From the NCBI RefSeq assembly GCF_009905375.1, contig NC_133650.1, positions 304,641,203 to 304,705,202 on the forward strand: a stretch of 64,000 nt of DNA, given 5' to 3'. The position numbers were made by a program, and so were the translations under genes. Below the pieces are notes generated by a model. The model was given only the letters and a program-made list of their open reading frames with translations, made no database searches and had not been told where the DNA came from. Positions 1 to 54,545 of the stretch are shown here, piece after piece. Numbering within the stretch: position 1 is the first letter of the stretch; each line of letters opens with the position of its first letter. The stretch is from Apium graveolens (Eukaryota; Streptophyta; Magnoliopsida; Apiales; Apiaceae).

Positions 1-1442
1 TTGCCAATGAGTGTAGAAAGTCTGATTCCAGTAAGAAAAAGTTTGAGTCTGTGGATTATAAGCAAAAATACTTCGATCTACTCAAACAAAAGGAAAGGGC
101 TTTTATTACACAAGAAAATGACTGGGCAGCAGATGGTCTAGATGAAGATGAAGATGTCAGCTATGTCAATCTAGCCCTAATGGCCAAGTCTGATGAGACA
201 GAGACAAGTTCCTCAAGCAATCATGTAATTACTACAAACCTTGCACATTTATCTAAAGCCGAGTGTAATGATGCCATAAATGACATGTCTACAGAATTAT
301 ATCATTTGCGTGTTACACTTAAGTCTCTTACTAAAGAAAATGCTAAAATCAAAGAAAATTATTTGTTTTTAAGTGAGAGGAATAATGTGCTTGAGTCTCA
401 GTTTGTTGATTTTGATAAATTAAGAATTGAGTGTAAGATTGCCAAGGAGGAATTAACTGAGTCCTTGAAAAAGGAAGAGATTTTGAAGAAGCAGCTCGAG
501 CGTGAACAAGAGGTGATTACAGCATGGAAAACATCCAGAGATGTCCATGCTCAAATCACCAAAGTTCAAGGAATTGAGTCTTTTTGTGATGAAGCCTGGA
601 AAAAGAACAAAGAGAAACTAGAACCTAATTTGGTAGATGGACTGCTAACAGATGTAGACTCGACAGATGATGAGGACTATCCGTCGGATAACAAAAAGTG
701 TTATCCGTCGAATGATGAAAATCCTCATCCGTCGGCTGTGAGCAAACCCATTAGCAAAGCCAAACTAATTAAGCTGAATGAGAAGTATGGGTCTGTTTCC
801 AAGAACTTTGTTTCAGGAGAGTCAAGTCAAATTAAGAAAGGGAAAAAGGCTAATGTTGGTCACATGACTGTCAAGCAGTTAAGTGACAGACTTGAGAAAA
901 TTGAGGTAAAAACAGAGATTAAAAGGAAAAACAATAGGAATGGTAAAGTAGGGATTAACAAACACAATAACTACACACCTGACAAATATGCTCCTAGAAA
1001 AATCTGTGTCAAGTGTGGTAGTGTAAATCATTTATCTGTTAATTGCAAATCTGCCATGCCTACTCCCATGTCTGTTCAGTCTCAATTTCCTAACATGAAT
1101 GCCATGCCTCCCATGCCTGTTAATGCTATGCCTACACAGAACATGAATGCACAGTTTGCTAATATGCCATTTGCACCTAATCCTTATTATGCTGCATATA
1201 GTATGCCACAAATGCCATTTAGCATGCCTTACTGGAATAACATGTTTACACCAAGCATGCCATTTCCTGTTAGTTATAATATGCATGATAATTCCACTGC
1301 AATGAATGGTTTCAAAGGTCCAATCCAAGTGACTAAGGATGAATCTGAAATTGCTAAGTCAAATGAGACAAGACCTAAGAAACAGAAAAAGAAAGCTAAC
1401 AAGGCAGGACCCAAGGAAACTTGGGTACCAAAATCAACTTGA
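1..1442 (+). CDS. gag: Gag C-terminal part (element A), partial
   Basis: The reading frame is open from base 3, in phase with the later ATG at position 51, and ends at TGA 1440-1442. Alignment by eye to elements B and C shows that the window begins inside the first CCHC zinc knuckle (its last residues FANEC are visible), so the ATG at 51 is internal. After that come an acidic segment, a predicted coiled coil (roughly codons 80-170), a basic stretch, a second CCHC knuckle (CVKCGSVNHLSVNC, about 1003-1044) and a Met/Pro-rich tail. Gag packages element RNA into particles. The segment at 660-740 holds three ATCCGTCG motifs. No stop or frameshift was seen in the part present. Confidence 0.85.
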   Translation, partial: ANECRKSDSSKKKFESVDYKQKYFDLLKQKERAFITQENDWAADGLDEDEDVSYVNLALMAKSDETETSSSSNHVITTNLAHLSKAECNDAINDMSTELYHLRVTLKSLTKENAKIKENYLFLSERNNVLESQFVDFDKLRIECKIAKEELTESLKKEEILKKQLEREQEVITAWKTSRDVHAQITKVQGIESFCDEAWKKNKEKLEPNLVDGLLTDVDSTDDEDYPSDNKKCYPSNDENPHPSAVSKPISKAKLIKLNEKYGSVSKNFVSGESSQIKKGKKANVGHMTVKQLSDRLEKIEVKTEIKRKNNRNGKVGINKHNNYTPDKYAPRKICVKCGSVNHLSVNCKSAMPTPMSVQSQFPNMNAMPPMPVNAMPTQNMNAQFANMPFAPNPYYAAYSMPQMPFSMPYWNNMFTPSMPFPVSYNMHDNSTAMNGFKGPIQVTKDESEIAKSNETRPKKQKKKANKAGPKETWVPKST

Positions 1443-1453
1443 TTTGATTTTGA

Positions 1454-4400
1454 TGTGTGCAGGGAAACAGAAGGAATCTTTGGTACTTGGATAGTGGTTG
1501 TTCAAGACACATGACTGGTGATTCTACCCTGCTCACAGAGTTTAAGGAGAGAGCTGGCCCAAGTATTACTTTTGGAGATGACAGCAAGGGTTATACTGTG
1601 GGATATGGCTTGATTTCAAAGGACAACGTCATCATTGTAGAGGTTTCCTTAGTGGATGGTCTCAAACACAATCTGTTGAGTATCAGCCAGCTTTGTGACA
1701 AAGGCAATTCAGTAACCTTCAACTCAGAAGCCTGTGTTGTGACTAATAAAAGAAGCAACAAAGTGGTTCTCACTGGTGTGAGAAGAGGAAATGTGTACCT
1801 AGCTGATTTCAACTCAACTAAAGCAGAAACTGTAACTTGCCTTCTCAGTAAAGCAAGTCAGGATGAAAGTTGGCTATGGCACAAAAAGCTATCTCATTTA
1901 AACTTCAAGACCATGAATGAGCTGGTAAAGAAAGAACTGGTAAGAGGCATTCCTCTAGTGGAGTTTTCAAAGGATGGACTGTGTGATGCCTGCCAAAAGG
2001 GAAGCAGATCAAAGCATCATTCAGGAAGAAACTTGATTCAACAATTAAAGAGCCTTTGCAACTGCTTCACATGGATTTATTTGGACCAGTCAATGTATTG
2101 TCCATCTCAAGGAAAAGATTTTTCCTAGTAATTGTACATGATTTCTCAAAGTTCTCTTGGACATATTTCCTAAAGTCTAAAGATGAGGCTAGTGAAATCA
2201 TCATCAATCACATAAGGCAAGTCAACAATCATCCTGATTTCAAAGTTAGAAAAATCAGGAGTGACAATGGAACCGAGTTTAAGAATTCTGTCATGAGAGC
2301 ATTTTGTGAGGAAAATGGGATTCTGCATGAGTTCTCAGCAGCAAGGACTCCACAACAGAATGAAGTAGTGGAAAGGAAGAACACATCACTTATTGAAGCT
2401 GCAAAGACAATGCTTGAAGAATCTAAACTACCAACATATTTCTGGGCTGAAGCTGTAAATACTGCATGCTATACTCAGAACATTTCTCTGGTTAATCAAG
2501 AAAGATGCATGACTCCCTATCAATTGTTCAAGAACAAGAAGCCAACTCTAAACTTTCTTCATGTCTTTGGCTGCAAATGCTATATCCTGAGAAATCAAAC
2601 TGATCAAAATGGGAAGTTCGATGCTAAAGCAGATAAAGGAATTTTTGTTGGATATGCTATTGGTAAAGCATATAGAGTCTACAATCTAAGAACCAACATT
2701 GTTGTGGAATCTATACATGTTGTGTTTGATGATAAAACGATTGAAGGACTGAAAGATGGAGATTACCATGAGAGCCTCAAATTCGACAATGTGGAGATGG
2801 TTAGTGATGACAGTGATGATGAAAGTGATCAAGAAACAGTGTCTAAGGATAATGCAGACAAATCTACTACCAATGAAGCACAAAACTCAACATCTGTCGA
2901 GTTACACAATGCTTCATCCGTCAGAAGGCAATCTGCATTATCCGTCAGGAGACAACCTGCCTCATCCGTCGGTACTCAAAATTCACCATCCGTCGGGTTA
3001 TCAAAAGAAGCAGGAGGTCAAGACAGATCACCTATAGAAAATTCCCCTTTCTCAAATCAAAGATCCACAAACTCAGGGGGAGTTTCTAGCAATCAAAACT
3101 CAATCACACATCAAAACAACATTGAGGTCTCTTCATCGAGAGCTAATCTACCTCAACAAAGGAAATGGACAAAAGATCACCCCTTTGAGCTTATCATTGG
3201 TGATGTTTCTTCTAGAGTTCAAACAAGAAGAGCAACTCAGGAAGAATGTCTATACAGCAGCTTTCTGTCAAAGGAAGAACCAAAGAAGGTAGAAGAAGCT
3301 TTATTGGATCCTGATTGGATTTTAGCTATGCAGGAGGAGCTATACCAATTTGAAAGGAATAATGTATGGAAGCTGGTACCCAAGCCTAAAGGAAAGAATC
3401 CAATAGACACCAAGTGGGTATTTAGAAACAAGATGGATGAAAATGGCATAGTAGTCAGGAATAAAGCTAGATTGGTTGCTAAGGGCTATTGTCAGCAAGA
3501 AGGAATTGATTTTGATGAAACATTTGCTCCTGTTGCAAGACCTTATGCCATCAGAATCTTCTTAGCCTATGCATCCCATGCCAATTTCAAGGTCTAACAA
3601 ATGGATGTCAAAAGTGCCTTTCTGAATGGAGATTTGGAGGAAGAAGTATATGTCAGTCAACCTCCTGGTTTTGAAAATTCAAATTTTCCAGAGTATGTCT
3701 ATTATCTTCTGAAAGCACTCTATGGACTGAAGCAAGCACCTAGAGCCTGGTATAACACTTTATCAAAGTTCCTTTTGGAAAATCACTTCACAAGAGGTAT
3801 TGTAGATAAAACTTTATTTTTCAGAAATGTTAATGGCTCTAGTATACTTGTTCAAATTTATGTAGATGATATTATTTTTGGCTCTACAGATGAGAAACTT
3901 TGCAAAAAGTTTGCCAAATTAATACAAAGTAAGTATGAAATGAGTATGATGGGAGAACTAACTTACTTTCTTGGTTTACAAGTTAAGCAAGTTAGTGATG
4001 GAATATTCATTAGTCAAACTAAATATATTTTTGATCTTTTAAAGAAGTTTGACTAATGGATTGCACATCTACAAAAACTCCCATGGCCACTGCAACTAAG
4101 CTTGAATTAAACACTACAGAAAAGTCTGTGGATATTTCAAGTTATAGAGGCATGGTTGGCTCACTTCTGTACTTAACAGCTAGTAGGCCAGATATAATGT
4201 TTGCTACATGTTTATGTGCTGGATTTAAGGCTGATCCTAGAGAATCTCACTTAATAGCTATTAAGAGAATTTTCAGATATCTCAAGGGAACACCAAACCT
4301 TGACATTTGGTATCCTAGAGATTCTGGTTTTGATCTAACTGGTTATTCAGATGCAGATTATGCAGGTTGTAGAATTGATAGAAAGAGTACAACATGAACC

Positions 4401-4802
4401 TGTCAATTTCTAGGAAACAAGCTTGTGTCCTGGTTCAGTAAAAAGCAAAATTCAGTTTCTACTTTTACAGCTGAAGCTGAATATAATACTGTTGGCAGTT
4501 GCTGTGCACAAATTTTATGGATGAAAAATCAATTGCTAGACTATGGTTTGCAAGTTGAGAGAATTCCTATTTTCTGTGATAACACAAGTGCAATTTCCAT
4601 CACTGAAAATCCAGTGCAACATTCAAGGACAAAGCACATAGATATCAAGTACCATTTCATAAGGGAACATGTAATGAATGGTACTGTGGAACTACATTTT
4701 GTTCCAAGTGAGAAGCGACTTGTAGATATCTTTACCAAGCCACTGGATGAATCCACCTTTTCAAGGCTGGTAAGTGAGTTAGGTATGCTTAATTACTCTT
4801 AA
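1454..4802 (+). pseudogene. pol: Pol polyprotein, broken (element A)
   Basis: Domains in order are aspartic protease (WYLDSGCSRHMTG, with an intact DSG), GAG-pre-integrase HHCC region, integrase ([22 protein letters not shown], giving the D,D,E triad), a variable linker with a 24-bp-phased repeat, RT (YVDD near 3861) and RNase H ([13 protein letters not shown]). Four lesions are visible against B and C: a one-base loss in a G run near 2000 (frameshift in integrase), TAT to TAA at 3595-3597 in RT, a one-base loss near 4053, and a TGA at 4395-4397 in RNase H. There is no ATG at the start. The frame opens after a TGA at 1451-1453 and is not in the gag frame. Confidence 0.9.
2892..2996 (+). repeat. 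24-bp-phased ATCCGTC array in pol linker (A)
   Basis: The core ATCCGTC (first copy ATCTGTC) starts at 2892, 2916, 2940, 2964 and 2988, exactly 24 bp apart. The bases between cores vary. In pol the array encodes five eight-residue units that each begin with Ser-Val. It lies between integrase and RT. Confidence 0.9.
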
Positions 4803-5325
4803 ATTTATCTGAGTTATTTTGCAAGTTGAAATGCAGCCAGAAAGTTAATTGATTTTTCTATTCTGGATGAAATTTTTGGATAAGTCAAAATTTACATCTC
4901 GACGGATGACCCTTATCCATCGAGTATGGTCATCCGTCGACACACCATTTGCTAATAAAAATCAATTACTTTTCTGGAATATCTTATGTATCGACATATA
5001 ACAATTTATCCTCATCCGTTGAATTGTTTTAATCTGAGCCGTTAATTCCCTGTACATTATCCATCGAGTATACTTACAGTTTGTAAGCATTACATGACGG
5101 ATAATGGGTGGAATTTTTACAGTTTATTTTTAAACGGCTATTTTAGGCAATTTCTATTGGTTAATTTACTTTACTTTATTATTTTTATCAGTTATTTTTG
5201 AGATAGTATAAAAGCTTCTTTCATTGCAATTGTTTTCTTTTATCATTCTCAAATTCAACTGCTCTAATTTCAAATCTCTCTCAAGCACCTACTCTACTTC
5301 TCTTCAAGCTTTTATTCTCTAAACA
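4803..5325 (+). promoter_or_regulatory. Pol-ORF3 intergenic region with fold-back motif and TATA box (A)
   Basis: About 520 nt separate the pol stop from the ORF3 ATG. TCGACGGATGACC (4899-4911) and its exact reverse complement (4928-4940) form a 13-bp inverted repeat with a 16-nt loop. Further motif copies follow up to about 5105. TATAAAAG lies at 5207-5214, 119 nt before the ATG, followed by a CT-rich leader. The layout repeats in B and C. Reading this as an internal promoter for ORF3 is inference. Confidence 0.5.
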
Positions 5326-8300
5326 ATGGCACCTGTAGTAAAGATTATGTCTCAAACTGGGTTCATTTATGAGAAGAACAATTTGACTGCATTGGTCAAT
5401 AAGGGTATTCAGCAATCAGAGGACTACCACAAGATGATGGACTTTGTAAAGATTTACAAGCTTAATTACGCCATGCTGGAATCACCCACAATCTTCTGTG
5501 AAGTTGTTGAAGAGATGTGGACCACTACTATCTATAACTCTACTGACAAGACCATCACTCTAACCATCAAAGGTAATGAATTCTGTATTAATAGTGATGT
5601 GATAAAAGCATGTTTCAAAATTCCTGATAACAATGTGACTTCACCACACAATGACACTGATATTATCAATATGTTTAATTCCATGCATTATGCACTTCCT
5701 ACTTCTAAACTGAGTGAAATTAGGAGAATGGGTCTTAGGAAGGAGTGGAGTTTCATGTGTGATGTAGTTACTAAGGTTTTCTCTGGAAAAATCAGTAATT
5801 TTGATTCAGTGAATATTTCCATGCTTAACATGCTATACATGCTAGTTACAGATAAATTTTATAATTTCAGTGATCTTGTTTTGTTTGAGTTAGGTTTTTA
5901 ATTAGGGGAGTTAAATAAAAGAGGTAAAAAATGTGTATTATGCTAGATTTCTTATGTTATTAGCTAACCACCTCTGTGAAGAGATTGTGCTTGAGAACCC
6001 AAACAACAAACTGGATTGTTGGGTTCAAGAGAGAAGACTCATTGCAGATTTGAACAGGGCCAATCATCACAAGGATGTGTCAATGGTCTACTTTCCTGTA
6101 ATGCAGGCACCTCAGGTAAGTGAGGTAAGTTCATCCATCTCTACAACTATTCCAACCTCCACTATTTCTTTGAATTCAGGAGTAGCTATGGCAACTGTGC
6201 CAATAACCAAACAGTTGCCTACCAAAGCCTCCAAACCTACTACTATTTCCAAAACCAAATCAAAGAAAATCCCCTCTGGTATCTCTCAAAAGATACCAGT
6301 TAAAAAATCCACCAAAGCCAAAGAGGGGAGTGTGAAGGAGGGTAAGTTAGGTGAGGGAAGGGGTGAACATCAAAGAAACCCCAAGAATAAGGTTGGAGAG
6401 TTGAGTGAATCCCAGCCTAGCCACACTGTAGTTTCCCAACAAACTGTAGTGCTTAAAAAGGACAAAAGCTCAGTTCTAGCTACATCCTCCCAAAAGGATG
6501 TGGTTATTGAACAAAGCTCTCAGCCAAGAGCACAGGCCAAAAGGGTTAGGGACACAAGCTCACCCCAAACCTATACAAGAAAGAAGAAATCTAAAACTTC
6601 TGGGGATGCACAGGGCACACACACAGTGCAAACTGGTGCTAAAGACATAGTCCCTGTACTCTCTCAAATTCAGTTTGATGTGGCTCCAATAAATGTGGAG
6701 TCACAGCCAAAATCTCTAGTTATAGAAGTACCTCATACACCATACTCACCAACAAACTCTCTGGATGTGGATATGATACACACATCAATTCCTGATTCCC
6801 CTTCTTTAACTCTGTTGGGGAAGCCAAAATCTACTACAAGTGAGCATCATCTTTTAGATGATTTGTTGGCTCACTTGCCAATTCTTTCAGAAACTATTAT
6901 GACATCTGTGCCCCAAATATCTTCAATCAGCACAGAGTCAACAATAGTTTCTCTTCCCAACTCATTCATTTCTACTCTCTCGGCGGATATTGTTCATCCG
7001 TCAAGTAGTGATTGTATCCCGACGGATAAGCCTAACAGCAGTTATCCGTCGGATAGCATTACCACTCACTCGATGGATATCACTCATCCGTCGAGTATCT
7101 CTGCACAACTTCAAACTTCAATTATTTCAAGTACAGAAGATTTAGTGGTTGTACAGTCACTCGTAGGATTGAGAGAGGAGAATGTCTTGAGTGAGAGGCT
7201 GGGTTGTTCCCAGGCAAAAGGTGAGGAAATGAGTGAAAATCTGCAATCCATTTCTTCAGGATTGGCAAAAGGGAGTGAGAGGAGTCCCACCTTAGTAGGT
7301 GAAGGTGAGGGTGTGAGGGTGGGGAGCCAGGGTGAGACCCTGATGCAACAAAAGAGAGAACATGAGAGAAAAGCAGGTATAGAGGGTATAAGGGTGGACC
7401 CAACCATTGCTCATGAGTTAATGATTGTGGATGATGCTGAAAAGGAAAGACAATTGCAGCAACATTACAAAGCTGTAATTGATAACATTTCCTTGGATGC
7501 TGACACTTTTACTCATCCTATTCCGGCCTATCAATTGTTGGCTGCTCAGGGCAATGAGGAGGCATAAAAGACTTTGAATCTGGTGCATACTTCAGAATCT
7601 CTACACAGGGATAAAGCTCATGTCAATTTAATGTCTCCTACAGCTGGTGAGCCATTTTGAAGAATTTGGAGTAAATTCTAATGATGATGACTCTATTTCA
7701 TTTGATGGAAGCATGAACTTAGGGGGGGATGAAGGCCCAAGTTCTATTCCAGATTTACCTGAATGGGCCTTGACAAAAGAGTCTACACCAGGATAATTTA
7801 ATGTCTCCTTGGTCAAACAAATCATGTCTATCCAAAAGGCCATTCAGAAGAGCTCAAATGCTGGTACCAAGGCTATTCTTCAAGCTCACCTAGATTCTCT
7901 ACATCTCATGAAGCTACATCAATTAAGACAGAATCTGAGTGTGGATGAACTCAAAAAGGATATAGCTGACTTGAAGACCTACAATTCTGAGAAGATGGAT
8001 TCAGTCATGCCATATGGTACCATGCGGGATCTATTACTGAGACTGAGAAGAGAATCAGATGCTGAAAAGAAGCTGGCCAAGTTGGAAGACAGAGTTCAAG
8101 TTATTGAAAATTCTGTGGCCACCATTCTTCAAAATCAACAGTGTCAGACCAATCTTCTCATGCAATTGGCTAAAGCACAAGGCCTGACTCCTCAACTTGA
8201 TGATAACAAAAAGGGGGAGAAAGGACCAAGTGAGGGGGAGAAGCTTCAGATATAAAACACTAAGGTAATTGTGCGATCAATTACTGTCTCAAAGCCACCA

Positions 8301-9871
8301 GTTACAGATGGTATAGATCTGATTCAAGCAGCAGCAGCAAACTTGAAAGCTGCTGAGAAAGAAAAGTTGAGTTTGATCAACTGGGAGAAGATTGATGAGG
8401 AGATACAGAAGAAGTTTGAACTTGTCAAGGAGCCAGTTAAGTCAGCCATCCATCACTCTCAAGTCAAGCAAATCAGTGTGAATGAGATGAGCATGAACTA
8501 TCTGGAAAAAGGACAATCTTCCTGCATCAAGTCTCCAAAGGCTGAAATGATTCTTAAACCAAGGGCAAACTACTCAAAATCATCCTTGAAAAACCCCTTG
8601 TATACTGTGTATGAGACATCCAAGCCTGATGAGAAGAAGCTTCTGTCAAGATCAATTATTTTCTATAAAGATCCAACTGATTTAGCTTCTAAAAAGAGGA
8701 TTGCTAAGATATTCAGAAATGGGAAGGAAATTTGTGTGGTAGCTGGACATCCTCAATTTGCTCAAGCAAAGAGAGAAGAAAAAGCCAGGTTGAAGCAGGA
8801 AAAGAAGCAAGCTATTCTAGATGCAAAGAAGGCTAAACAAAAGAAAGAGCAGATTGCTATCTTGGCCAAGCTATAGGCTGTGAATTCATCACAACAAATT
8901 CCCTCTCAATCATCTGAAGCTACTGAATCAAGGAAACATGTTGAAGAACAGAAGAAATCTCCAAGAAAGAAAGAATTGGCTAAAAGAACAAAAAGGAAAC
9001 TGGATATTGTTGACAAGGAATTGGAAGATCAATTTCCTAAGGAACCCACACCAGCTACAACTCAAGCATCAAAGCCCTCTGTGGTATTTGAAGATATAAG
9101 GGTGGTAGATCCTTACAGGAATATTCATGGTGAACCTATTGTGCCCAAGGATGAGCCAATAGAATGGGATAACATACTAATTCCTGAATTCAGTCTACCA
9201 ATCCTTAGCAAGCCAAAGAGGACAAAGTCAAGGGCAGTCAAGAAAGTGAATCTGTCACCCCTCAAATCCAAATCTGTAGTCAAAGCTCAGCCCAAAGTCA
9301 ATAAGGGAGACTACTTGTACTTGTGTGACACAAAGAATTTTCTGATCTAAACCTCTATCTGGATGAACTAGATGAAGTAAGGGGAATTGATGCATACAGA
9401 AACCTACCTGAAAGGTTAGTGTTCAAGTACAAAGGAGGAAAGGAGATTCAGTGGCCACTTCACAGGATTCTTCAAGAGAGCCAAGCTGTACTGATTAAAT
9501 TTTATTCATCCTTCAAGAAGAACTTTGGGTTCAATGCCACTGCAAGAAGACTAGTATTGAAGAAGATTGAAGAACTGAGGAGTGTTAGAGCTAAAGATGC
9601 ACTCCCAAAGACTCTAATCATCCCATACACAGGGAGAAGAGTGCATCTAAGGCCCTACTGGCTGATGGAGTTTATAGATGACAAAGGTGTGAGAAGATTC
9701 TTCATATTAGAAGACCAACTGAGCATCTCCAGCAATGAGACTCTCTTGGAAATGCAAGAAAAGCTAAATCTCTCAGAATCTGATGAACTTGAATTCCACA
9801 GGCAACTCCAAAATCAGATTGATGAAAACAACAGAAAGCTTGGAAGAAGATCCAGACCTTCAAGAAACTAG
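5326..9871 (+). pseudogene. Third ORF (env-like by position), broken (element A)
   Basis: The ATG at 5326 opens a protein starting MAPVVKIMSQTGF, shared with B and C. It has a conserved N-terminal domain of about 250 residues, a long Ser/Thr/Pro/Lys-rich middle part containing the CGACGGAT motif, a coiled-coil-like segment (about 7810-8200) and a conserved basic C-terminal domain (about 9360-9870). I see no signal peptide or strong membrane segment, so 'envelope' describes position only and the function is unknown. Breaks: AAA to TAA near 5899; an A6 run at 5926-5931 that shifts the frame; TAA at 7565-7567; a one-base insertion near 7656; TAA near 7795, 8253 and TAG at 8874-8876; and a one-base loss near 9330. 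Confidence 0.8.
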
Positions 9872-10046
9872 AAAAATCTGCTCAGGCTAGAGGAGCATCT
9901 TGAAATGACTGTGAGCTAAACTTTGCACATTTTGATTAATTGAAGCACTTTCAGTATTTTCTACTTTTTTTTAAAGCTGTATGTTTAGGATGTTTTGTTA
10001 TCATCAAGTATCTATTAATTTATGGCTACAATTCCAGTAGACATAA

Positions 10047-10058
10047 ATTGGGGAAGAT
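10047..10058 (+). other. Polypurine tract (A)
   Basis: The purine-rich stretch TTGGGGAAGAT directly precedes the LTR start TGTTGTGCATATG. It is the usual primer site for plus-strand synthesis, and the same layout is seen in B and C. Confidence 0.8.
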
Positions 10059-12417: not shown

Positions 12418-12419
12418 AT

Positions 12420-14881: not shown

Positions 14882-14885
14882 TTGA

Positions 14886-42453: not shown

Positions 42454-42455
42454 AT

Positions 42456-42467: not shown

Positions 42468-42514
42468 AAGCTCTTAACTTACAAAGAGTTTAAAGATCAA
42501 AACAATACAGCAAG

Positions 42515-44895
42515 ATGAACAAGAAGGATGTTGGAGTCAAGATCCCTTTTCTGGATAAAGATAATTACCATCATTGGAAGGTAAAGATGCATCTTCATAT
42601 GCTTTCTCAAGATGAGGCCTATGTGGACTGCATAGAAAGAGGTCCTCATGTTCAAATGAGAGCTGCAACAGGAAACGAGCCATTAGTCCCCAAGCCAAGG
42701 CATGAATGGTCTGATTCTGACATTGAACAAGTCAGGAAGGATAAAAAGGCCATGAATATCCTGTTTAATGGAGTTGATGGAGATATGTTTGACAACATTA
42801 TCAACTACAAAACTGCCAAGGAAGTTTGGGATACAATACAGTTCATCTGTGATGGCACTGAGCAAGTTAGAGAAAACAAGATGCAGCTCCTGATTTAGAA
42901 ATATGAGCATTTCCATAATGAAGAAAGTGAGTCTCTCACTGACATCTTTAGTAGGTTTCAGAAACTACTAAATGCTCTAAAGTTGCATGGAAGGGCCTAT
43001 CAAACTAAAGATTCCAATCTGAAATTCCTTAGATCTCTTCCAAAGGAATGGAAACCAATGACAGTCTCATTAAGAAACTCACAAGACTATAAGGAGTTTA
43101 CTTTGGAGAGACTGTATGGCATCCTGAAAACCTATGAGCTTGAAATGGAGCAGGATGAAAGGATGAAGAGAGGAAAGAAGAAAGGAGGATCCATTGCACT
43201 AGTTGCTGAGTTGGAAAAGGAGAATGAAGTGAAGATGGAAGCTGTTGAATCAACTTCAAGGGTCTGTGAGAACAAGGGCAAGGGGCTTGCAGTAGAAAGT
43301 GAAGATTCATTGAGCCAAGATGACATGGAGGACATTGATGAGCACCTAACTTTTCTTTCCAGGAGATTTGCCAAGCTCAAGTTCAAGAAGAACTTTGGAG
43401 CAGCCAAGCCAAATAGAAACATGGTGGATAAATCAAAATTCAAATGTTTCAAATGTGGCTTGGCAGGGCATTTTGCCAGTGAGTGTAGGAAGTCAGATTC
43501 CAGTAAGAAAAAGTTTGAGTCTGTGGATTATAAGCAAAAATACTTTGACCTACTCAAGCAAAAGGAAAGGGCTTTTATAACACAAGAAAATGACTGGGCA
43601 GCAGATGGTCTGGATGAAGATGAAGATGTCAGCTATGTCAATCTAGCCCTAATGACCAAGTCTGATGAGGCAGAAACAAGTTACTCAAGCAATCAGGTAA
43701 TTACTACAAACCTTGCATAATTATCTAAAGCTGAGTGTAATGATGCCATTAATGACATGTCTACAGAGTTATATCATTTGCGTGTTACACTTAAGTCTCT
43801 TACTAAAGAAAATGCTAAAATCAAAGAAAAAAATTGTTTTTGAGTGAGAGGAATAATGTGCTTGAGTCTCAAGTAAGAATTGAGTGTAAGATTGCCAAGG
43901 AGGAATTAACTGAGTCCTTGAAAAAGGAAGAAATTTTGAAGAAGCAGCTCGAGCGTGAATAAGAGGTGATTAAGGCATGGAAAACATCCAGGGATGTCCA
44001 TGCTCAAATCACCAAAGTTCAAGGAATCGAGTCCTTCTGTGATGAAGCCTAGAAAAAGAACAAAGAGAAACTAGAACCTAATTTGGTAGATGGACTGCTA
44101 ACAGATGTAGACTCGACGAATGTTGAGGATCATCCGTCAGATAACAAAAAGTGTTATCCGTCGAATGATGAAAATCATCATTCGTCGGCTGTGAGCAAGC
44201 CCATCAGTAAGGCCAAACTAGTTAAGCTGAATGAGAAGTATGGGTCTGTTTCCAAGAACTTTATTTCAGGAGAGTCGAGTCAAGTTAAGAAAGGGAAAAA
44301 GGCTAATGTTGGTCACATGACTGTCAAACAGTTTAGTGACAGACTTGAAAAGATTGAGGTAAGAACAGAGACTAAAAAGAAAAATAATAGGAATGGTAAA
44401 GTAGGGATTAACAAACACAATAACTACACACCTGATAAATATGCTCCTAGAAAAATCTGTGTCAAGTGTGGTAGTGTAAATCATCTGTCTGTTAATTGCA
44501 AATCTGCCATGCCTACTTCCATGTCTGTGCAACCTCAATTTCCTAACATGAATGCCATGCCTCCCATGCCTGTTAATGCTATGTCTACACAGAACATGAA
44601 TGCACAATTTTCTAATTTGCCATTTGCACCTAATCCTTATTATGCTGCACATAGTATGCCACAAATGCCATTTAGCATGCCTTATTGGAATAACATGTTT
44701 ACACATATCATGCCATTTCCTGTTAGTCATAATATGCATGATAATTCTGTTGCAATGAATGGTTTCAAAGGCCCAACTCAAATGACTAAGGATGAATCTG
44801 AAATTCCTAAGCCAAATGAGATAAAGCCTAAGAAACAGAAAAAGAAAGCTACCAAGGCAGGACCCAAGGAAACTTGGGTACCAAAATCAACTTGA
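42515..44895 (+). pseudogene. gag: Gag polyprotein, broken (element C)
   Basis: The ATG at 42515 gives MNKKDVGVKIPFLDKDNYHH, aligned with B gag. The first CCHC knuckle (CFKCGLAGHFASEC, near 43446) and the second (CVKCGSVNHLSVNC, near 44457) are both present, with the Met/Pro-rich tail after the second. Breaks: TAG at 42896-42898, TAA at 43718-43720, an indel in an A run near 43830, a further deletion near 43875, TAA near 43960 and TAG near 44048. The final part from 44083 is open. Motif copies lie at 44113-44190. Confidence 0.88.
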
Positions 44896-44906
44896 TTTGA
44901 TTTTGA

Positions 44907-47900
44907 TGTGTGCAGGGAAACAGAAAGAATCTTTGGTACTTGGATAGTGGTTGTTCAAGACACATGACTGGTGATTCTGCCCTACTCACAGAGTTTAAGG
45001 AGAGAGCTGGCCCAAGTATTACTTTTGGAGATGACAACAAGGGTTATACTGTGGGATATGGCTTGATTTCAAAGGACAATGTTATCATTGAGGAGGTTGC
45101 TTTAGTGGATGGTCTCAAACACAATTTGCTGAGTATCAGTCAGCTTTATGATAAAGGCAACTCAGTAACCTTCAATTTAGAAGCCTGTGTTGTGACTAAT
45201 AAAAGAAGCAACAAAGTGGTTCTCACTGGTGTGAGAAAAGGAAATGTGTACCTAGCTGATTTCAACTCATCTAATGCAGAATCTGTAACTTGTCTTCTCA
45301 GTAAAGCAAGTCAGGATGAAAGTTGGCTATGGCACAAGAAGCTATCCCACTTAAACTTCAAGACCATGAATGAGCTAGTAAAGAAAGAACTGGTCAGAGG
45401 CATTCCTCTAGTGAAGTTTTCCAAGGATGGACTGTGTGATGCCTGCCAAAAGGGGAAGTAGATTAAAGCATCATTGAGGAAGAAACTTGATTCAACAATT
45501 GAAGAGCCTTTGCAACTGCTTCACATGGATTTGTTTGGACCAGTCAATGTATTATCAATCTAAAGGAAAAGATTTTGCCTAGTAATTGTAGATGATTTCT
45601 CAAAGTTCTCTTGGACATATTTCCTAAAGTCTAAAGATGAGGCTAGTGAAATCATCATCAATCATATAAGGCAAGTCAATAATCATCCTGATTTCAAGGT
45701 TAGAAGAATCAGGAGTGACAATGGAACTGAGTTCAAGAATTCTGTCATGAGAGCATTTTGTGAGGAAAATGGGATTCTGCATGAGTTTTCAGCAGCAAGG
45801 ACTCAACAACAGAATGGAGTAGTGGAAAGGAAGAACAGATCACTTATTGAAGCTACAAGGACAATGCTTGAAGAATCAAAGTTACCAACATATTTCTAGG
45901 CTGAAGCTGTAAATACTGCATGCTACACTCAGAACATTTCTCTGGTTAATCAAGCAAGGTGCATGACTCCCTATCAACTGTTCAAAAACAAGAAGCCAAC
46001 ACTTAACTTTCTTCATGTCTTTGGCTGTAAATGCTATATTCTGAGGAATCAAACTGATCAAAATGGGAAGTTTGATGCTAAAGCAGATGAAGGAATTTTT
46101 GTTGGATATGCTGTTGGTAAAGCATATAGACTCTACAATCTAAGAACCAACATTGTTGTGGAATCAATACATGTTGTGTTTGATGATAAAAAGATTGAAG
46201 GACTGAAAGATGGAGATTACCATGAGAGCCTCAAATTCGATAATATGGAGATGGTTAGTGATGGCAGTGATGGTGAAAGTGATCAAGAAACAGTGTCTAA
46301 GGATAATGCAGATAAATCTACTACCAATGAAGCATAAAACTCAACATCTGATGAGTTGCATAATGTTTCATCCATTGGGAGGCAATCTGTGTTATCCGTC
46401 GGGAGACAACCAGCTTCATCCGTCGGTACTCAAAATTCACCATCCGTCGAGTTATCAAAAGGAGCTGGAAGTCAAGATAGATCACCTATAGAAAGTTCCC
46501 CTTTCTCAAATCAAAGATCCACAAACTCAGGGGGAGTTTCTATCAATCAAAACTCAATCACACATCAAGACAATAATGAGGTTTCTTCATCTAGAGCTAA
46601 TCTACCTCAACAAAGGAAATGGACAAAAGATCACCCCTTTGAGCTTATCATTGGTGATGTTTCTTCTAGAGTTCAAACAAGAAGAGCAACTCAGGAATAA
46701 TGTCTATACAACATCTTTCTTTCCAAGGAAGAACCAAAGAAGGTAGAAGAAGCAGTGTTGGATCCTGATTGGATTTTAGCTATGCAGGAGGAGCTAAACC
46801 AATTTGAAAGGAATAATGTATGGAAGCTGGTGCCCAAGCCTAAAGGAAAGAATCCAATAGACACCAAGTGGGTATTCATAAACAAGATGGATGAAAATGG
46901 CAATGTAGTCAGGAATAAAGCTAGATTGGTTGCTAAGGGCTATTATCAGTAAGAAGGAATAGATTTTAATGAAACATTTGCTCCTGTTGCAAGACTTGAA
47001 GCCATCGGAATCTTCTTAGCCTATGCAGCCCATGCCAATTTTAAGGTCTATCAAATGGATGTCAAAAGTGCCTTTCTGAATGGAGATTTGGAGGAAGAAG
47101 TTTATGTCAGTCAACCTCCCGGTTTTGAAGATCCAGAACATGTCTATTATCTTTTGAAAGCACTTTATGGACTGAAGTAAGCACCTAGAGCCTGGTATGA
47201 CACTTTATCAAAGTTCCTTTTGGAAAATCACTTCACAAGAGGTACTGTAGATAAAAAATTATTTTTCAGAAATGTTAATGGATCTAGTATACTTGTTCAA
47301 ATTTATGTAGATGATATTATTTTTGGCTCTACAAATGAGAAACTTTGCAAAAAGTTTGCCAAATTGATGCAAATTAAGTATGAAATGAGTATGATGGGAG
47401 AACTAACTTACTTTCTTGGTTTACAAGTTAAGCAAGTTAGTGATGGAATATTCATTAGTCAAACTAAATATATTTTTGATCTTTTAAAGAAGTTTGATCT
47501 AATGGATTGCACATCTGCAAAAACTCCCATGGCCACTACAACTAAGTTTGAATTAAACACTACTGAAAAGTCTGTGGATATTTCAAGTTATAGAGGTATG
47601 GTTGGCTCACTTCTGTACTTAACAGCTAGTAGGCCAGCTATAATGTTTGCTACATGTTTATGTGCTAGATTTCAGGATGATCCTAGAGAATCTCACTTAA
47701 TAGCTATCAAGAGAATTTTCAGATATCTCAAGGGAACACCAAACCTTGGCATTTGGTACCCTAGAGATTCTGGTTTTGATCTAACTGGTTATTCAGATGC
47801 AGATTATGCAGGTTGTAGAATTGATAGAAAGAGTACAATAGGAACCTGTCAAATTCTAGGAAACAAGCTTGTGTCCTGGTTCAGTAAAAAGCAAAATTCA

Positions 47901-48248
47901 GTTTCTACTTCTACAGCTGAAGCTGAATATATTACTGCTGGCAATTGCTGTGCACCGATTTTATGGATGAGAAATCAATTGCTAGACTATGGTTTGCAAG
48001 TTGAGAGGATTCATATTTTCTGTGATAACACAAGTGCAATTGCCATCATTGAAAATCCAGTACAACATTCAAGGACAAAGCACATAGATATCAAGTACCA
48101 TTTCATAAGGGAACATGTAATGAATGGTACTGTGGAACTACATTTTGTTCCCAGTGAGAAGTAGCTTGCAGATATGTTTACCAAGCCACTGGATGAATCC
48201 ACCTTTTCAAGGTTGGTAAGTGAGTTACGTATGCTTAATTACTCTTAA
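44907..48248 (+). pseudogene. pol: Pol polyprotein, broken (element C)
   Basis: Protease (WYLDSGCSRHMTG), integrase ([14 protein letters not shown]), linker array, RT (YVDD near 47307) and RNase H are recognisable in one largely continuous frame. Stops are at 45459 (TAG), 45561 (TAA), 45897 (TAG), 46335 (TAA), 46698 (TAA), 46950 (TAA), 47178 (TAA) and 48162 (TAG). Six of these eight are C-to-T or G-to-A type against A and B. Few indels were seen, which fits decay of an element long silenced by methylation. Confidence 0.9.
46346..46450 (+). repeat. 24-bp-phased ATCCGTCG array in pol linker (C)
   Basis: Cores start at 46346 (ATCTGATG), 46370 (ATCCATTG), 46394, 46418 and 46442, exactly 24 bp apart, matching the arrays in A and B. 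Confidence 0.9.
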
Positions 48249-48770
48249 ATCTATTTGAGTTAATTTGCAAGTTGGAAAGCAGCCAAAAATTTAAATTGAT
48301 CTTTCAGTCTTGGATGAAATTTTGGCTAAGTCAAAATTTACATCTCGACGGATGACCCTTATCCATCGAGTTTGGTCATCCGTCGAAATACAATTTTCTA
48401 ATAAAAATCAATTACTTTTCTGGAATATTTTATGTCTCGACGGATATCAGTTTATCCTCATCCGTCGAATTGTCTTAATCTCATCCGTTAATTCCCTGTA
48501 CATTATCCATCGAGTATACTTACAGTTTGTAAGCATAACATGACGGATAATGGGCGAAATTTTTACAGTTTATTTTTAAACGGCTATTTTAGACAATTTC
48601 TATTGGTTGCTTTATTTCACTTTATTATTTTTATCAGTTATTTTTGAGATAGTATAAAAGTTTATTTCATTGCAATTGCTTTTCTTTTATCATTCTTAAT
48701 TCAACTGCTCTAATTTCATTCTCTCTCAAAGCACTTACTCTCTTTCTCTTCAAGCTCTTATTCTCTAACA
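48249..48770 (+). promoter_or_regulatory. Pol-ORF3 intergenic region with fold-back motif and TATA box (C)
   Basis: TCGACGGATGACC (48345-48357) and its exact reverse complement (48374-48386) form the same 13-bp inverted repeat with 16-nt loop as in A. More motif copies follow to about 48550. TATAAAAG lies at 48653-48660, 118 nt before the ORF3 ATG. A promoter function is inferred. Confidence 0.5.
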
Positions 48771-51700
48771 ATGGCACCTGTTGTAAAGATTATGTCTCAA
48801 ACTGGGTTCATTTATGAGAAGAACAATTTCACTGCATTAGTGAACAAGGGTATTCAGTAATCGGATGACTATCACAAGATGATGGACTTTGTGAAGAATT
48901 GTAAGCTCAATTATGCCATGCTGGAATCACCCACAATCTTATGTGAAGTTGTTGAAGAGATGTGGACCACTGCTACCTATAACTCTACTAATAAGACCAT
49001 CACTCTAACCATTAAAGGTAAAGAATTTTGTATAAATAGTGATGTGATAAAAGCATGTTTCAAAATTCTTGATAACAATGTGACTTCACCACACACTGAC
49101 ACTGACATAGTCAATATGCTCAATTCCATGCACTATGCACTTCCTACTTCTAAACTGAGTGATATTAGGAGAATAGGTCTTAGGAAAGAGTGGAGTTTCT
49201 TGTGTGATGTAGTTACAAAGGTTTTCTCAGGAAAGATCAGTAATTTTGATTCTGTGAATATTTCCATGCTTAACATGCTATACATGCTAGTTACAGATAA
49301 ATTTTATAATTTCAGTGATCTTGTTTTGTTTGAGTTAGGTTTTAAATTAGGGGAGTTAAATAAAAGAGGTAAAAAATGTGTATTATGCTAAATTTCTTAT
49401 GTTATTAGCTAACCACCTCTGTGAAGAGATTGTGCTTGAGAACCCAAACAACAAACTGGATTGTTGGGTTCAAGAGAGAAGGCTCATTGCATATTTGAAC
49501 AGGGCCAATCATCACAAGGATGTGCCAATGTTCTACTTTCCTGTAATGCAAGCACCTCAGGTAAGTGAGGTAAGTTGATACATCCCTACAACTATTCCAA
49601 CCTCCACAATTTCTTTGAGTTCAAGAGTAGCTATGGAAACTGTGCCAATGACCAAACAATTGCCTACCAAAGCTGCCAAACCTATTATTATTTCAAAATC
49701 CAAATCAAAGAAAGCCCCCTCTGGTATCTCCCAAAAGATGCCAGTTGAAAAATCCACTAAAGCCAAAGAGGGGAGTGTGAAGGAGGGTAAGTTAGGTGAG
49801 GGAAGGGGTGAACATAAAAGAAACCCCAAGAATAAGGTTGGAGAGTTGAGTGAATCCCAGCCTAGCCACACTGCAGTTTCCCAACAAACTGTAGTGCTTA
49901 AAAAGGACAAAAGCTCATTTCTAGCTGCATCCTCCCAAAAGGATATAGCTATTGAACAAAGCTCTCAACCAAGAGCACAAGCCAAGAGGGTTAGGGACAC
50001 AAGCTCACCCCAAATTTATGCCAGTAAGAAGAAATCAAAAACTTCTGGGGATGCACAGGGTACACACACTGTGCAAACTGGTGCTAAAGACACAGTCACT
50101 GCACCTTCACAAATTCAGCTTGATGTGGCTCCAATAAATGTGGAGTCACAGCCAAAATCTCTAGTTATAGAAGCACCTCAAACACCATACTCACCAACAA
50201 ATTCTCTGGATGTGGATATGATAAACACATCAATTCCTGATTCCCCTTCTTTAACTCTGTTGGGGAAGCCAAAATCTAGTGCAAGTGAGCATCATCTTTT
50301 ATATGATTTGTTGGCTCACTTGCCAATTCTTTCAGGAACTGTTGTGTCATCTGTGCCTAAAATATCTTCAATCAGCACAGAGTCAACAATAGTTTCTATT
50401 CCCAGCTCATTCATTTCTACTCTCTCGACGGATATTGCTCATCCGTCGAGTAGTGATTGTATCCCGACGGATAAGCTTAACAGCAGTTATCCGTCGGATA
50501 ACAAAACCACTCACTTGATGGATATCACTCATCCATCAAGTATCTCTGCACAACTTCAAACTTCAATTCTTTCAAGTGCAGAAGATTTAGTGGTTGTACA
50601 GTCACTTTTAGGATTGAGAGAGAAGAGTGTTTTGAGTGAGAGTCTGGGTTGCTCCCAGGAAAAAGGAGAGGAAATGAGTGAAAATCTGCAATCCATTTCT
50701 TCAGGATTGGCAAAAGGGAGTGAGAGGAGTTCCACCTTAGTAGGTGAAGGTGAGGGTGTGAAGGTGTGGATCCAGGGTGAGACCCTGATGCAACAAAAGA
50801 GAGAAAATGAGAGAAATGCAGGTACTGGAGCAATAAGGATGGATGTCATTGCTAGTGAGTCAATGAATGCCCAGGATGCAGACAGGGAAGGACTATCTCA
50901 ACATTCTAAAGCTGTTATAGATTCTACTTCTCTTGATGCTGAAGTATTTACTCACCCTGTTCCAGCTTATCAAATTCTAGCTGAACAGGGCAATGACAAT
51001 GCAGAAAGGATGCTCAATCTGGTGCATACCACCCAGTCTATGCAAAGGGCTAATGATGCCATCACAACTTTGCCTTCTACAGCTGGTGATGTGGACTATG
51101 AGACTGGGGGTTCAGCTGATTTCTTTGGAGATGGGAGTGGGGATAGTGAAGATGAAGCAATGGGCATAGAGGGAGAAGTAGGCTCAAGCTCAAGGTCAGT
51201 ATGCCATCATAGGCATTCTCAAAGCACTGTGATGAGCATTACTTCAAGACAACCCTGATCCAGTTAATTAATCAAATTTACACTGCTCTTCAAACCACTA
51301 CCAATTCTAGTACCAAGAAGCTCCTTCAGGCACATCTAGCCTCCCCGCAACTTCAGCAAATCCAGGGCTTCCAGCATGCTAGAGATGTGAACACCATGAA
51401 GGGTGATATTGAGGAGATGAAGAAGGCCATTTCAGATAAAATAGACTCTACATTTCCAGACACTAGAATGATTGACATCAAGAGGCAATTAAGGAAAAAT
51501 TCTGATCTTGCAACCAAGATAGAATCCTTGGATACAAGAGTGTCAGCTATGGAAGCATCTTTAACTGCCATTCATCTCCATCAAGCCCAACAGACTGATC
51601 TATTTCGAAAACTGGTAGCAGCTCAAACCCCCTCCACAACTCAACTTGATGATAACAAAAAGGGGGAGAAAGGACCAAGTGAGGGGGAGAAGCTTCAGAT

Positions 51701-53322
51701 ACAAATCAGTAAAGTAATTGTGCCTTCAATTACTATCTTAAATCCACAAGTCACAGATGGTATAGATCTGATTCAAGCAGCAGCAACCAACTTGAAAGTT
51801 GCTGAGAAGGAAAAGTTGAGTTTGGTCAACTGGGAGAAGATTGATGAGGAGATACAGAAGAAGTTTGAACTTGTAAAGGAGTCTGTTAAGTCAGCCATCC
51901 TTCACTCTCAAGTCAAGCAAATTAGTGTGAATGAGATCAGCATGAACTATCTGAAAAGAGGACAATCTTCCTGCATCAAGTCTCCAAAGGCTGAAATGAT
52001 TCTTAAACCAAGGCCAAACTACTCAAAATCATCTTTGAAGAACCCCTTGGACACTGTGTATGAGACACCCAAGCCTGATGAGAAGAAGCTTCTATCAAGA
52101 TCAATTACCTTCTATAAAGATCCAGCTGATTCAGCTTCTAAAAGGAGGATTGCTAAGATTTTTAGAAATGGGAAAGAAATTTATGTGGTGGCTGGACATC
52201 CTCAATTTGCTCAAGCAAAGAGAGAAGAAAAAGCTAGATTGAAGCAGGAAAAGAAGGAGGCTGCTCTAGGTGCTAAAAAGGCTAAACATAAGAAAGAGCA
52301 GATTGCTATCTTGGCCAAGCTACATGCTGTAAATTCATCATAACAAATACCTTCTCAACCATCTGAAGCTACTGAATCAAGGAAGCAAGTTGAAGAACAG
52401 AAGAAATCTCCAAGAAAGAAAGAATTGGCTAAAAGAACTAAAAGGAGACTGGATATTGTTGACAAGGAATTGGAAGATCAATTTCCTAAGGAATCCACAC
52501 CAGCTACAACTCAAGCAACAAAGCCCTCTGTGGTATTTGAAGACATAAGGGTGGTGGATCCGTACAGGAATATTCATGGTGAACCTACTGTGCCCAAGGA
52601 TGAGCCAATAGAATGGGAGAACATGCTAATTCCATACTTCAATCTACCAATCCTTAGCAAGCCAAAAAAGGACAAAGTCAAGAGCAGTCAAGAAAGTGAA
52701 GCTGTCACCTCTCAAATCCAAATCTATAGTCAAAGTTCAGCCTAAAGTCAATAGGGGAGACTATCTGTACTTGTGTGACATTAAAGAATTTTCTGATCTA
52801 AATCTCTATCTGGATGAACTAGATGAAGTAAGAGGTATTGATGCATACAGAAACCTACCTGAAAGGTTAGTGTTCAAGTACAAAGGAGGAAAGGAGATTC
52901 AGTGGCCACTTCACAGGATTCTTCAAGAGAGCCAAGCTGTACTGATTAAAGTTTATTCATCCTTCAAGAAGAACTTTGGGTTCAATGTCACTGCAAGAAG
53001 ACTAGTATTGAAGAAGATTGAAGAACTAAGGAGTGTTAGAGCTAAAGATGCACTCCCAAAGACTCTAATCATCCCATACACAGGAAGAAGAGTGCATCTA
53101 AGGCCCTACTGGCTAATGGAGTTCATAGATGACAAAGGTGTGAGAAGATTCTTCAGATTAGAAGACCAATTGGGCATCTCTAGCAATGAGACTCTTTTGG
53201 AAATGCAAGGAAAGCTAAATCTCTCAGAATCTAATGAACTGGAATTCCACAAGCAGCTCCAAAATCAGATTGATAAAAACAACAGAAAGCTTGAAAGAAG
53301 ATCCAGACCTTCAAGAAACTAG
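48771..53322 (+). pseudogene. Third ORF (env-like by position), broken (element C)
   Basis: It starts with the same MAPVVKIMSQTGF N-terminus and ends with the same basic C-terminal domain as A and B. Breaks include TAA at 48858-48860, the A6 run at 49371-49376 that shifts the frame exactly as in A, TGA near 49576, TGA near 51256 with a frame change, TAA near 52341 and a frame change near 52670-52745. The stretch about 50845-51645 is only loosely similar to A and B, while both sides match A closely. Motif copies lie at 50425-50545, including a perfect 9-bp fold-back (50425-50433 with 50441-50449). No membrane segment was seen and the function is unknown. Confidence 0.8.
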
Positions 53323-53498
53323 ATAAATCTGCTCAGGCTAGAAGAGCATCTTGAAAATGACTGTGAGCAAAACTTTGTACATTTTGTTATTTGAAGCACT
53401 TTTCAGTATTATCTACTTTTCTTTAAAGTTATATTTTTAGGGTGTTTTGTTATCATCAAGTAACTCTTAATTTATGGCTACAATTCCAGTAGACATAA

Positions 53499-53510
53499 AT
53501 TGGGGGGGAT
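53499..53510 (+). other. Polypurine tract (C)
   Basis: A run of seven G within ATTGGGGGGGAT directly precedes the 3' LTR. Confidence 0.82.
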
Positions 53511-54545
53511 TGTTGTGCATATGTTGTGTACTTGATGATTTCATGAAAAAAACACCTTAGTAGATTTTACTTAGTGAAATAATGTAGCACTCGACGAATA
53601 AGAATTATTGTCCCGACGGATAACTCAATATAGTCCCGACGGATGATGACTTATTTATCCATCGAGTGAGTAGCTTATGTACTAATGAGTCTGTAGCACA
53701 TTTCTGCATTCACCATTGTATAAATTCTATAAGTAGTATTCAAGTCATGTTGAATTTAATTAGATATGCAGAATAGGTTGATTAATTGTACATAAATGAT
53801 GTCTTGTAATTCTGCATAAGTGAAATGAAGTCAAGTGCCTGTTTGCTACCCGACGGATAACCTACAATGAAGTCGACGGATGATCAATATCTCGACGGAT
53901 GATCAATCTCGACGGATGATCATGAACCCGACGGATGAAGAATTCAAATATCAGTTGACAGTGACAACACAGTCACATGTGTCGAGTGGATGCAAATGGA
54001 ATGTGGTATCCTATTCAACTGGGTTTTCGAGAACAAAGAAGCATTGCCATTTCCATGCTATTATAAAGATATTCAAAGATGCTGGAATAGAGTAATGAAG
54101 TAGCATTGTAATATATTAGATAGTTTTGTTTTTATTATCTTGTCTTATTACTTTGTAATCTTGGTGATATATAACCAAGAAGTAGCAAATAGAAACTAGA
54201 TCTGAGAGACAACAAGAGAAACATTTGTAAGCAGAATTCTTAGCATTTCTCTGTATTCTCAGCAGTTCAATATTTGTAAGCAGCTGTGAGAATTTTTGCA
54301 CACAGGGTTCTCTCGATATATAATATATATCTCTGGTGGAATCATTCAAATCCACCAGAAAGTTTTTGAAGACTCTTGTTTTTAATTACTTGTGTTTTGA
54401 TTCACTTAAGTTTTATTCCGCATTGTGCTAATCAATACACTTATATTTATATTTGAGTTAGAACATTTTATTTCAAGAAAAAAGTTTCAAGAATTCCATT
54501 CAACCTCCCTTCTGTAATTCTTGTCATATTGTTAAGGGACTTATA
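53511..54545 (+). repeat. 3' LTR of element C (1035 bp)
   Basis: It starts TGTTGTGCATATG. The end reads GGGACTTATA where the 5' LTR has GGGACTAACA, so the terminal CA has mutated. The border is fixed by the GAGCT duplication that follows. The motif array lies at 53851-53936. Confidence 0.93.

Follow-up and report, generated by a model that had tools for sequence, protein, structure and literature searches.

A nine-base repeated-motif box with one-base family alleles in coding and non-coding modules of celery Sirevirus elements

Two described systems of short repeated motifs in plant transposable elements bear on the locus reported here, a stretch of 64,000 nucleotides of Apium graveolens (celery; contig NC_133650.1, positions 304,641,203 to 304,705,202), called the window below, which contains three related Sirevirus (SIRE, Ty1/copia) elements A, B and C. 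The repeated motif (RM) boxes of Sireviruses were reported by Bousios et al. (2010, PMC2829016), with 12 distinct consensus sequences among 13 elements. According to the main text of that paper RM boxes lie in the long terminal repeats (LTRs), in the domain before the envelope gene (ENV) and, for two of the elements, at the beginning of ENV. They carry a CGG-CCG signature, their consensus is family-specific and they make up most CpG-rich patches. In maize Sirevirus LTRs, clustered palindromic motifs with CGG/CCG have been linked to small-RNA mapping (Bousios 2016, as cited in PMC10760457). The second system is that of Arabidopsis VANDAL, in which a 9-base target motif is described in same-orientation arrays with one-base subfamily variants; the formation of tandem repeats is the reported mode of its evolution (PMC5735166). 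Its reader, VANC, is encoded by VANDAL itself, binds the motif in vitro and reduces methylation (PMC5735166, PMC10398659).

The celery box reads YCGACGGAT in A and C and TCAACGGAT in B. Like the Sirevirus RM it is short and high-copy with a CGG/CCG core, and many copies lie in the upper half of the LTR, 5' of the TATA box, and further ones follow pol in each of the three elements, ahead of the envelope-like gene (PMC2829016). Because placement, copy number and the CGG core match, the box appears to be known in kind, as a Sirevirus RM. The initial annotation knew of no such system in SIRE elements; this needs correction, as RM boxes with a family-specific consensus were published in 2010 (PMC2829016). 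There are differences as well. RM boxes are described as short-gap palindromes, whereas the unit in celery is a 9-bp half-box which is often unpaired or paired over 7 nt; both CGG and CCG are present and inverted pairs with a 7-nt gap recur, and many copies, notably those of the LTR arrays, are single half-boxes. Unlike the RM sites reported in the main text of PMC2829016, celery boxes also lie inside gag, in the linker between integrase and reverse transcriptase (RT) and in the middle of the third open reading frame (ORF3). No description of gag and integrase-RT linker boxes in two frames was found in the open-licence literature or in the main-text sections of PMC2829016, and none of a one-base switch at homologous sites between related families in the same literature and in that paper apart from its supplements.

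The VANC target motif of VANDAL transposons seems to be the closest worked-out mechanism. In both cases a box of nine bases occurs in many copies per element, in same-orientation arrays and with one-base variants that mark subfamilies (C-type and T-type in VANDAL), and the copies of the VANDAL motif are reported to evolve together (PMC5735166). On the other hand VANDAL elements are DNA transposons with mainly non-coding targets and an identified reader, VANC (PMC5735166, PMC10398659), whereas many celery boxes are coding and occur in both orientations. The celery box is best likened to the VANC system in how it may work, and is not classed as a member of it.

The initial annotation had described a short motif that recurs at matching places of A, B and C in two family variants, and this was borne out. 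All 17 motif-bearing modules of the three elements exceeded every shuffle (200 dinucleotide shuffles per module), from the gag of C (1 against a mean of 0) to the 3'LTR of B (13 against a mean of 0.005). The box is concentrated in five module types, which are the U3 part of the LTR, the linkers of gag and of integrase-RT, the region after pol and the middle of ORF3, and the exact core occurs 0 times in the protease-integrase and 0 times in the RT-RNaseH parts of A, B and C. A motif-free ranking of 8-mers, which omitted the 5'LTRs of B and C, placed the core first in A (13 against 0.008 expected) and in C (19 against 0.008), and the core made up the top two in B (33 against 0.30 and 32 against 0.24). 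Exact counts in the window on the plus and minus strands were 15 and 8 for TCGACGGAT, 33 and 12 for TCAACGGAT, and 0 and 1 for TTGACGGAT. Sites with at most one mismatch from TCRACGGAT numbered 29 in A, 57 in B and 36 in C, and some of those in coding domains are probably due to chance. The form given earlier for A and C needs correction in that its first base is often C (CCGACGGAT 7 times in A and 11 times in C), and C has TTAACGGAT at 48483.

In U3 the box is repeated, mostly on a single strand, 5' of a TATA-like box. The 3'LTR of A (boxes at 10139..10533, 5' of TATATAAA at 10699) holds both alleles, and the G form alternates there with TCAACGGAT, which stands at 10440, 10487 and 10525. The 5'LTR of B (11389..11798, 5' of TATATAAA at 12055) has 14 boxes with at most one mismatch, which carry the adenine allele exclusively, and its 3'LTR (23201..23610) has 13 exact copies of TCAACGGAT. 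The 5'LTR of C (41499..41844, 5' of TATATTAA at 42076) has the YCGACGGAT allele, and boxes are present in its 3'LTR as well (53591..53936). In the post-pol region and in the coding linkers of gag, integrase-RT and ORF3 the boxes are single or form inverted pairs, in which the 7-nt gap is the commonest. The gag linker of A (660..735) has boxes at 660(+), 679(-), 703(-) and 727(-), the three exact minus cores reading Y/H-P-S; that of B (14102..14168) has 14102(+) and 14117(+), which read STD, and 14136(-) and 14160(-), which read P-L; that of C (44113..44164) has 44113(+), 44132(-, CTGACGGAT) and 44156(-). The integrase-RT linkers carry minus-strand boxes in 24-nt steps: in A (2892..2996) at 2892, 2964 and 2988 together with 2916 and 2940 (CTGACGGAT), in B (16328..16451) at 16328, 16352, 16376, 16400 and 16424, with an additional 16443(+), and in C (46394..46450) at 46394, 46418 and 46442; the exact cores of A and B read S-V. 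The post-pol boxes of A (4899..5067) are 4899(+), 4915(-), 4932(-), 5014(-, TCAACGGAT) and 5059(-); those of B (18325..18538) include two inverted pairs with 7-nt gaps, 18325/18341 and 18367/18383; and those of C lie within 48345..48513, which takes in the one at 48483. In ORF3 the boxes of A (6980..7094) are 6980(+), 6996(-), 7019(+), 7044(-), 7070(+) and 7086(-). Those of B (20073..20187) include the 7-nt-gap inverted pairs 20073/20089 and 20163/20179 and read STD and H/Y-P-L, and those of C (50425..50539) are 50425(+)/50441(-) with a 7-nt gap, 50464(+)/50489(-) and 50515/50531 (TTGATGGAT).

The stretch between B and C also exceeded its shuffles (6 against a mean of 0.405, maximum 3), and this excess comes from an array at 32.0 kb and from three isolated cores at 27530, 34053 and 34177; the stretch 3' of C has 0 exact cores. 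The isolated cores are CAACGGAT/ATCCGTTG and lie outside the elements and the array. The array (32001..32163, plus strand) has 8 boxes in exact 22-bp steps with flanks common to its boxes, and is perhaps a fragment of the LTR of another retroelement. It is mixed in alleles (TCGATGGAT 4, YCGACGGAT 3, TTAACGGAT 1), which is a further correction to the initial annotation. Repeated TCGACAAGTC- and TCGAGAACTC-like words were seen around the array, and TATAAA lies downstream of it.

It was also claimed that one base of the box has switched from G to A between the families at essentially all sites. This holds in the main: among the 18 internal sites that could be aligned, the base is A in all 18 for B, G in 15 for C and G in 16 for element A, and element A carries both forms. 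The motif filter had retained 20 aligned places; at 2 of them B was out of register and these were dropped, and the LTR sites lie outside this count. In the same alignments, positions not in boxes showed G-to-A and C-to-T changes from C to B at 60/233 and 68/233. The probability of 15 or more out of 18 is 1.0e-6 at a background of 0.27 and 2.1e-4 at 0.4, to be read with the provisos that the aligner may force boxes into register and that sites were selected by motif score. A Fisher test of A (22 G and 4 A, with 3 of the 29 sites omitted as chance) against B (0 G and 50 A, rounded down from 57) used counts entered by hand and can be used for its direction alone. Free mixing within single elements, which the initial annotation had set against its own claim, was not found in A, B and C, yet the set is not clean.

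Selection on an element at the DNA or RNA level had been proposed earlier, and the present data support it. The coding copies were compared with 2000 synonymous-codon shuffles of 12 window ORFs (the integrase-RT linker of C falls in none of these) and numbered 8 in A against a mean of 0.18 (maximum 2), 13 in B against 0.385 (maximum 5) and 5 in C against 0.075 (maximum 2). The 17 exact minus cores are read in two frames, 12 as P-S or P-L (gag and ORF3) and 5 as S-V (integrase-RT linker). Because of the codon shuffles, the two minus-strand frames, the occurrence of boxes in coding and non-coding DNA alike and the base that differs at homologous sites, it is supported that the box acts at the nucleotide level. 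The observed/expected ratio of CpG outside boxes was 0.086 in A, 0.022 in B and 0.063 in C, while two other stretches of the window gave 0.91 and 0.68. Out of 58 CpGs of B, 48 are inside boxes. This figure is in part a given, CpG being a component of the box itself, but it shows that boxes are retained in places where CpGs are not. Taken together, the synonymous-codon shuffles, the weak flanks (two or three positions near the core carry 0.6-1.2 bits in A, B and C, the rest 0.0-0.6 bits) and the near-absence of CpG outside boxes indicate that the box is selected as DNA, probably as a binding site. Differences between the two LTRs of one element, which arise after insertion, were 4/117 in boxes against 23/986 in the rest for B and 2/72 against 33/961 for C. 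These are small numbers, and in them boxes change after insertion about as fast as the remaining sequence. Since there is no clear protection after insertion, selection on the transposing lineages would be the simpler account.

A wider sample was obtained through protein relatives, in which the DNA box was inferred from the reading frame. Box pairs can be traced in them through their translation, which is S-T-D for a plus copy and (Y/H)-P-L or P-S for a minus copy. The peptide pattern of a pair with a 7-nt or 10-nt gap was present in 43 of the 120 gag relatives listed (232 were found), including entries from celery, hogweed and carrot, and the 7-nt form occurred 35 times in the listed relatives against a mean of 0.1 (maximum 2) in 200 residue shuffles. 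End states in the same relatives were P-L 28, P-S 18 and Q-L 6, where Q-L would correspond to TCAACTGAT. One relative, P0015, named 'interaptin-like' and filed under Rhizophagus irregularis, has 54% identity to the gag of B and shows H-Q-L states. In the clade of gags that contains carrot, P-L followed by P-S is seen in 5/7. The gag tree suggests that P-L may be older than P-S, with weak rooting and linker states typed by eye. Among ORF3 relatives 10/51 have the pair pattern, and in certain ORF3s from celery the peptide is P-M-D...H-P-S, for which the DNA would be CCGATGGAT. A narrow scan for the integrase-RT linker gave P0121, and the linker was also seen, outside that scan, in P0071; both are from celery. 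Linkage of gag and ORF3 alleles through adjacent locus tags was sought in one pair, P0056/P0180, in which P0056 has no box peptide.

We consider it about 60% probable that the 9-mer is an RM half-box, a cis-acting DNA site read by a putative sequence-specific protein. A binding site is the simplest reading, since the allele of the family is present whether boxes stand in arrays on one strand, singly or in inverted pairs. Each element lineage would track the preference of one putative reader, and a shift in that preference, whether of a host factor or of an element-encoded protein, would be followed by re-fixation of the boxes to the new allele, singly or by short repeat turnover, in the transposing lineages. 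Coding copies would be tolerated in those parts of the protein that are under the least constraint. The box would probably serve to keep the element active, as an enhancer or as a VANC-like anti-silencing landing pad, and a role in the protein is less likely. For sunflower SIRE elements a reduced CG methylation over the centre has been reported, which is suggestive only (PMC12844716).

A number of observations weigh against a binding site of this kind or against a strict set of alleles. The search yielded no candidate for the reader, ORF3 being without a Pfam match in the pieces scanned and without a match in the PDB for one piece, and the inverted pairs fold well as RNA. Element A has the adenine form at 5014 and at the three U3 sites given above. 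C and B differ at 47/180 box positions, with the switch included, against 528/1310 outside, which is moderate conservation. The split at the DNA level (A/C against B) is seen once, so the co-change amounts to one comparison and not to a replicated correlation. Among 31 ORF3 relatives that cover the region, at least five from celery, P0156, P0160, P0166, P0170 and P0175, mix P-S and P-L; the box pattern is absent in 11 of the 12 hogweed ORF3s covering the region; and 7 gags, mostly from hogweed, have no clear state.

The initial annotation had named three mechanisms, out of which a binding site fits best, pairing fits the inverted pairs and not the same-strand LTR array, and copying between sites is weakened. 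Pairing in RNA is the alternative to be taken most seriously, though it is unlikely in our judgement. Plus and minus copies would pair locally, as a 9-bp stem with a 7-nt loop, or over long range, and serve packaging, export or evasion of silencing, and the switch would be compensatory. Out of 8 box segments that were folded, 7 did better than every one of 200 shuffles (z from -3.8 to -8.9), and among plus-then-minus arrangements with start-to-start offsets of 9 to 40 nt the offset 16 is the most frequent (9/26). Four plus/minus pairs could be aligned across the three elements, 660/679, 4899/4915, 6980/6996 and 7070/7086 (numbering of A), and they have G-C in A and C where B has A-U. The palindromes of maize Sireviruses, which share the genus and the CGG/CCG motifs with the celery boxes, attract small RNAs (Bousios 2016, as cited in PMC10760457). 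However, unlike the hairpin LTRs of maize (PMC10760457), the one celery LTR array that was folded, the same-strand U3 array of B and its densest cluster, did no better than shuffles (z +1.18, with 183/200 shuffles folding equally or better), and it carries the same allele nonetheless. The 5'LTR copies lie 5' of the TATA box and would therefore be outside the 5' part of the RNA, the post-pol pair 4899/4915 retains a C-A mismatch in both A and C, and G-U wobble would be expected to tolerate mixed states.

Concerted evolution without function, in which the box would spread among the sites of one element by template switching, slippage or gene conversion, is quite unlikely. Slippage would agree with the regular spacing of the boxes (24 nt for those in coding linkers, 15-16 nt for the LTR array of B, 22 nt at 32 kb) and with the shared flanks of the 32 kb array, and the VANDAL motifs are reported to arise by tandem repeat formation (PMC5735166). 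The low information of most flanking positions across the modules of A, B and C would require copied tracts of about 12 bases or shorter, moving between inverted and distant copies. Copying is weakened on this account, and copying of long tracts was set aside because flanks beyond about two bases carry little information. In addition, RT-RNaseH and protease-integrase gained no exact copy, and the box sites occupy positions common to both families.

Decay of methylated CpG, which would have produced the CA found in place of CG at the first CpG of the B boxes, is highly improbable in spite of the strong CpG depletion of the elements, the 6/6 LTR-pair differences inside boxes that are transitions and the two-sided decay visible at the first CpG of the A boxes (TG 3, CA 4). 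Decay yields TG and CA alike and at both CpGs, whereas the B boxes have CA 44, TG 3 and CG 0 at the first and retain CG in 41/47 at the second, a spectrum that rejects decay as the cause of the family switch; if the P-L of most gag linkers is ancestral, which is weakly rooted, the change in A/C created a CpG. Decay may be the source of the mixed sites of A, although its three 3'LTR sites are all CA. Selection on protein repeats (STD, YPL/YPS, SVE) with the DNA box as a by-product has hardly any probability, for although 9/9 exact plus cores in the 12 ORFs read S-T-D or P-T-D and the peptide pattern is widespread, identical boxes occur in the LTRs and the post-pol region, synonymous shuffles remove the boxes and minus copies lie in two frames; the non-coding copies contradict it.

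The identity of the three elements, all on the plus strand, is based on their LTRs and coding parts. Element A (1..11077) is truncated by the left window edge and has part of gag, pol, the post-pol region, the ORF3 region and a 3'LTR at 10059-11077. Element B (11316..24230) has LTRs at 11316-12417 and 23128-24230, a flanking 5-bp repeat AACAG, gag at 12479-14881, pol pieces to 18239 and ORF3 pieces at 19857-21440 and 22002-22940. Element C (41419..54545) has LTRs at 41419-42453 and 53511-54545 and a flanking 5-bp repeat GAGCT; its gag-pol consists of short open stretches only and its ORF3 region is present. Alignment of A with C gives 92.6% similarity over 7.7 kb, and that of A with B 77.9% over 4.8 kb. 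An Apium graveolens entry matches the whole length of the gag ORF of B with 94% identity. A Pfam scan for gag-pol domains covered B and gave the Ty1/copia set with a CCHC knuckle, namely Retrotran_gag_2 (E 1.2e-20), zf-CCHC (7.8e-7) and RVT_2 (1.2e-79); A and C were placed by the similarities given above. G-rich tracts finish just 5' of the 3'LTR, TAGGGGAGAT in B, TGGGGGGGAT in C and TGGGGAAGAT in A. They resemble, without equalling, the Sirevirus polypurine tract octamer AGGGGGAG, which is described about 10 bp ahead of the 3'LTR (PMC2829016).

Each element has an additional ORF 3' of pol, at 5933-7567 in A, 19857-21440 in B and 49615-51258 in C. This ORF3 is envelope-like by its position and is a candidate envelope only. 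The ORF3 of C has relatives in celery and hogweed. No Pfam match above the cut-off was found for the ORF3 pieces of B and C, and the single piece compared with PDB sequences gave no match. Five ORF3 relatives were scanned with Pfam, and a match was seen in P0157 only, to RVT_2 from a fused pol part. An AlphaFold model of one relative had a mean pLDDT of 41.7 and was unusable.

Two proteins were searched against viral contigs, and neither had a relative there. The inverted-pair pattern itself was seen there at four loci with one pair each and was taken as chance. Two of the viral contigs, L001 and L002, each have a single inverted pair of TCAACGGAT whose copies lie 7 nt apart, with nearby CGGAT words at matching distances, and they are probably related contigs with a chance match. 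Among bacterial genome contigs one related locus was found (L005, JAILAS010000055.1), filed under a Eubacterium metagenome-assembled genome and apparently a plant contaminant, which encodes a plant Sirevirus-like RT end and a further reading frame. This more distant plant element has another repeated palindromic word after pol, around GGGTCGACCC, as RM boxes would predict, and GGGTCGAC occurs in it 6 times on either strand.

Other repeats were also noted in the window. Direct repeats at 54756-56174 and 60224-61665, 91.7% identical, flank minus-strand ORFs, one of which (59449-59958) looks gag-like by eye, and 54756-61665 is perhaps another LTR retrotransposon. Overlapping direct copies in steps of about 171 bp, 79-81% identical, lie at 32805-33431. 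Inverted similar stretches at 27110-27474 and 62879-63244 (81%) and at 34444-34636 and 62635-62859 (73%) suggest another dispersed repeat.

The present study describes two families with one-base alleles at homologous sites, some of which lie in genes where the protein cannot explain them. RM boxes have been in print since 2010, and no protein that reads them is named in the open-licence literature searched. Because the alleles differ at homologous sites, coding ones included, what reads the box becomes a question that can be tested by affinity methods. It is conceivable, though we hold it to be doubtful, that in Sireviruses of the celery family a protein encoded by the element, with ORF3 or gag as the candidate, reads the box along the whole element including its coding parts, prevents silencing and co-evolves with its sites, so that sister families would have separate sequence 'dialects' in a manner analogous to VANDAL. 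Should the element indeed encode its reader, the abundant LTR retrotransposons would join one group of DNA transposons in the use of sequence dialects against silencing.

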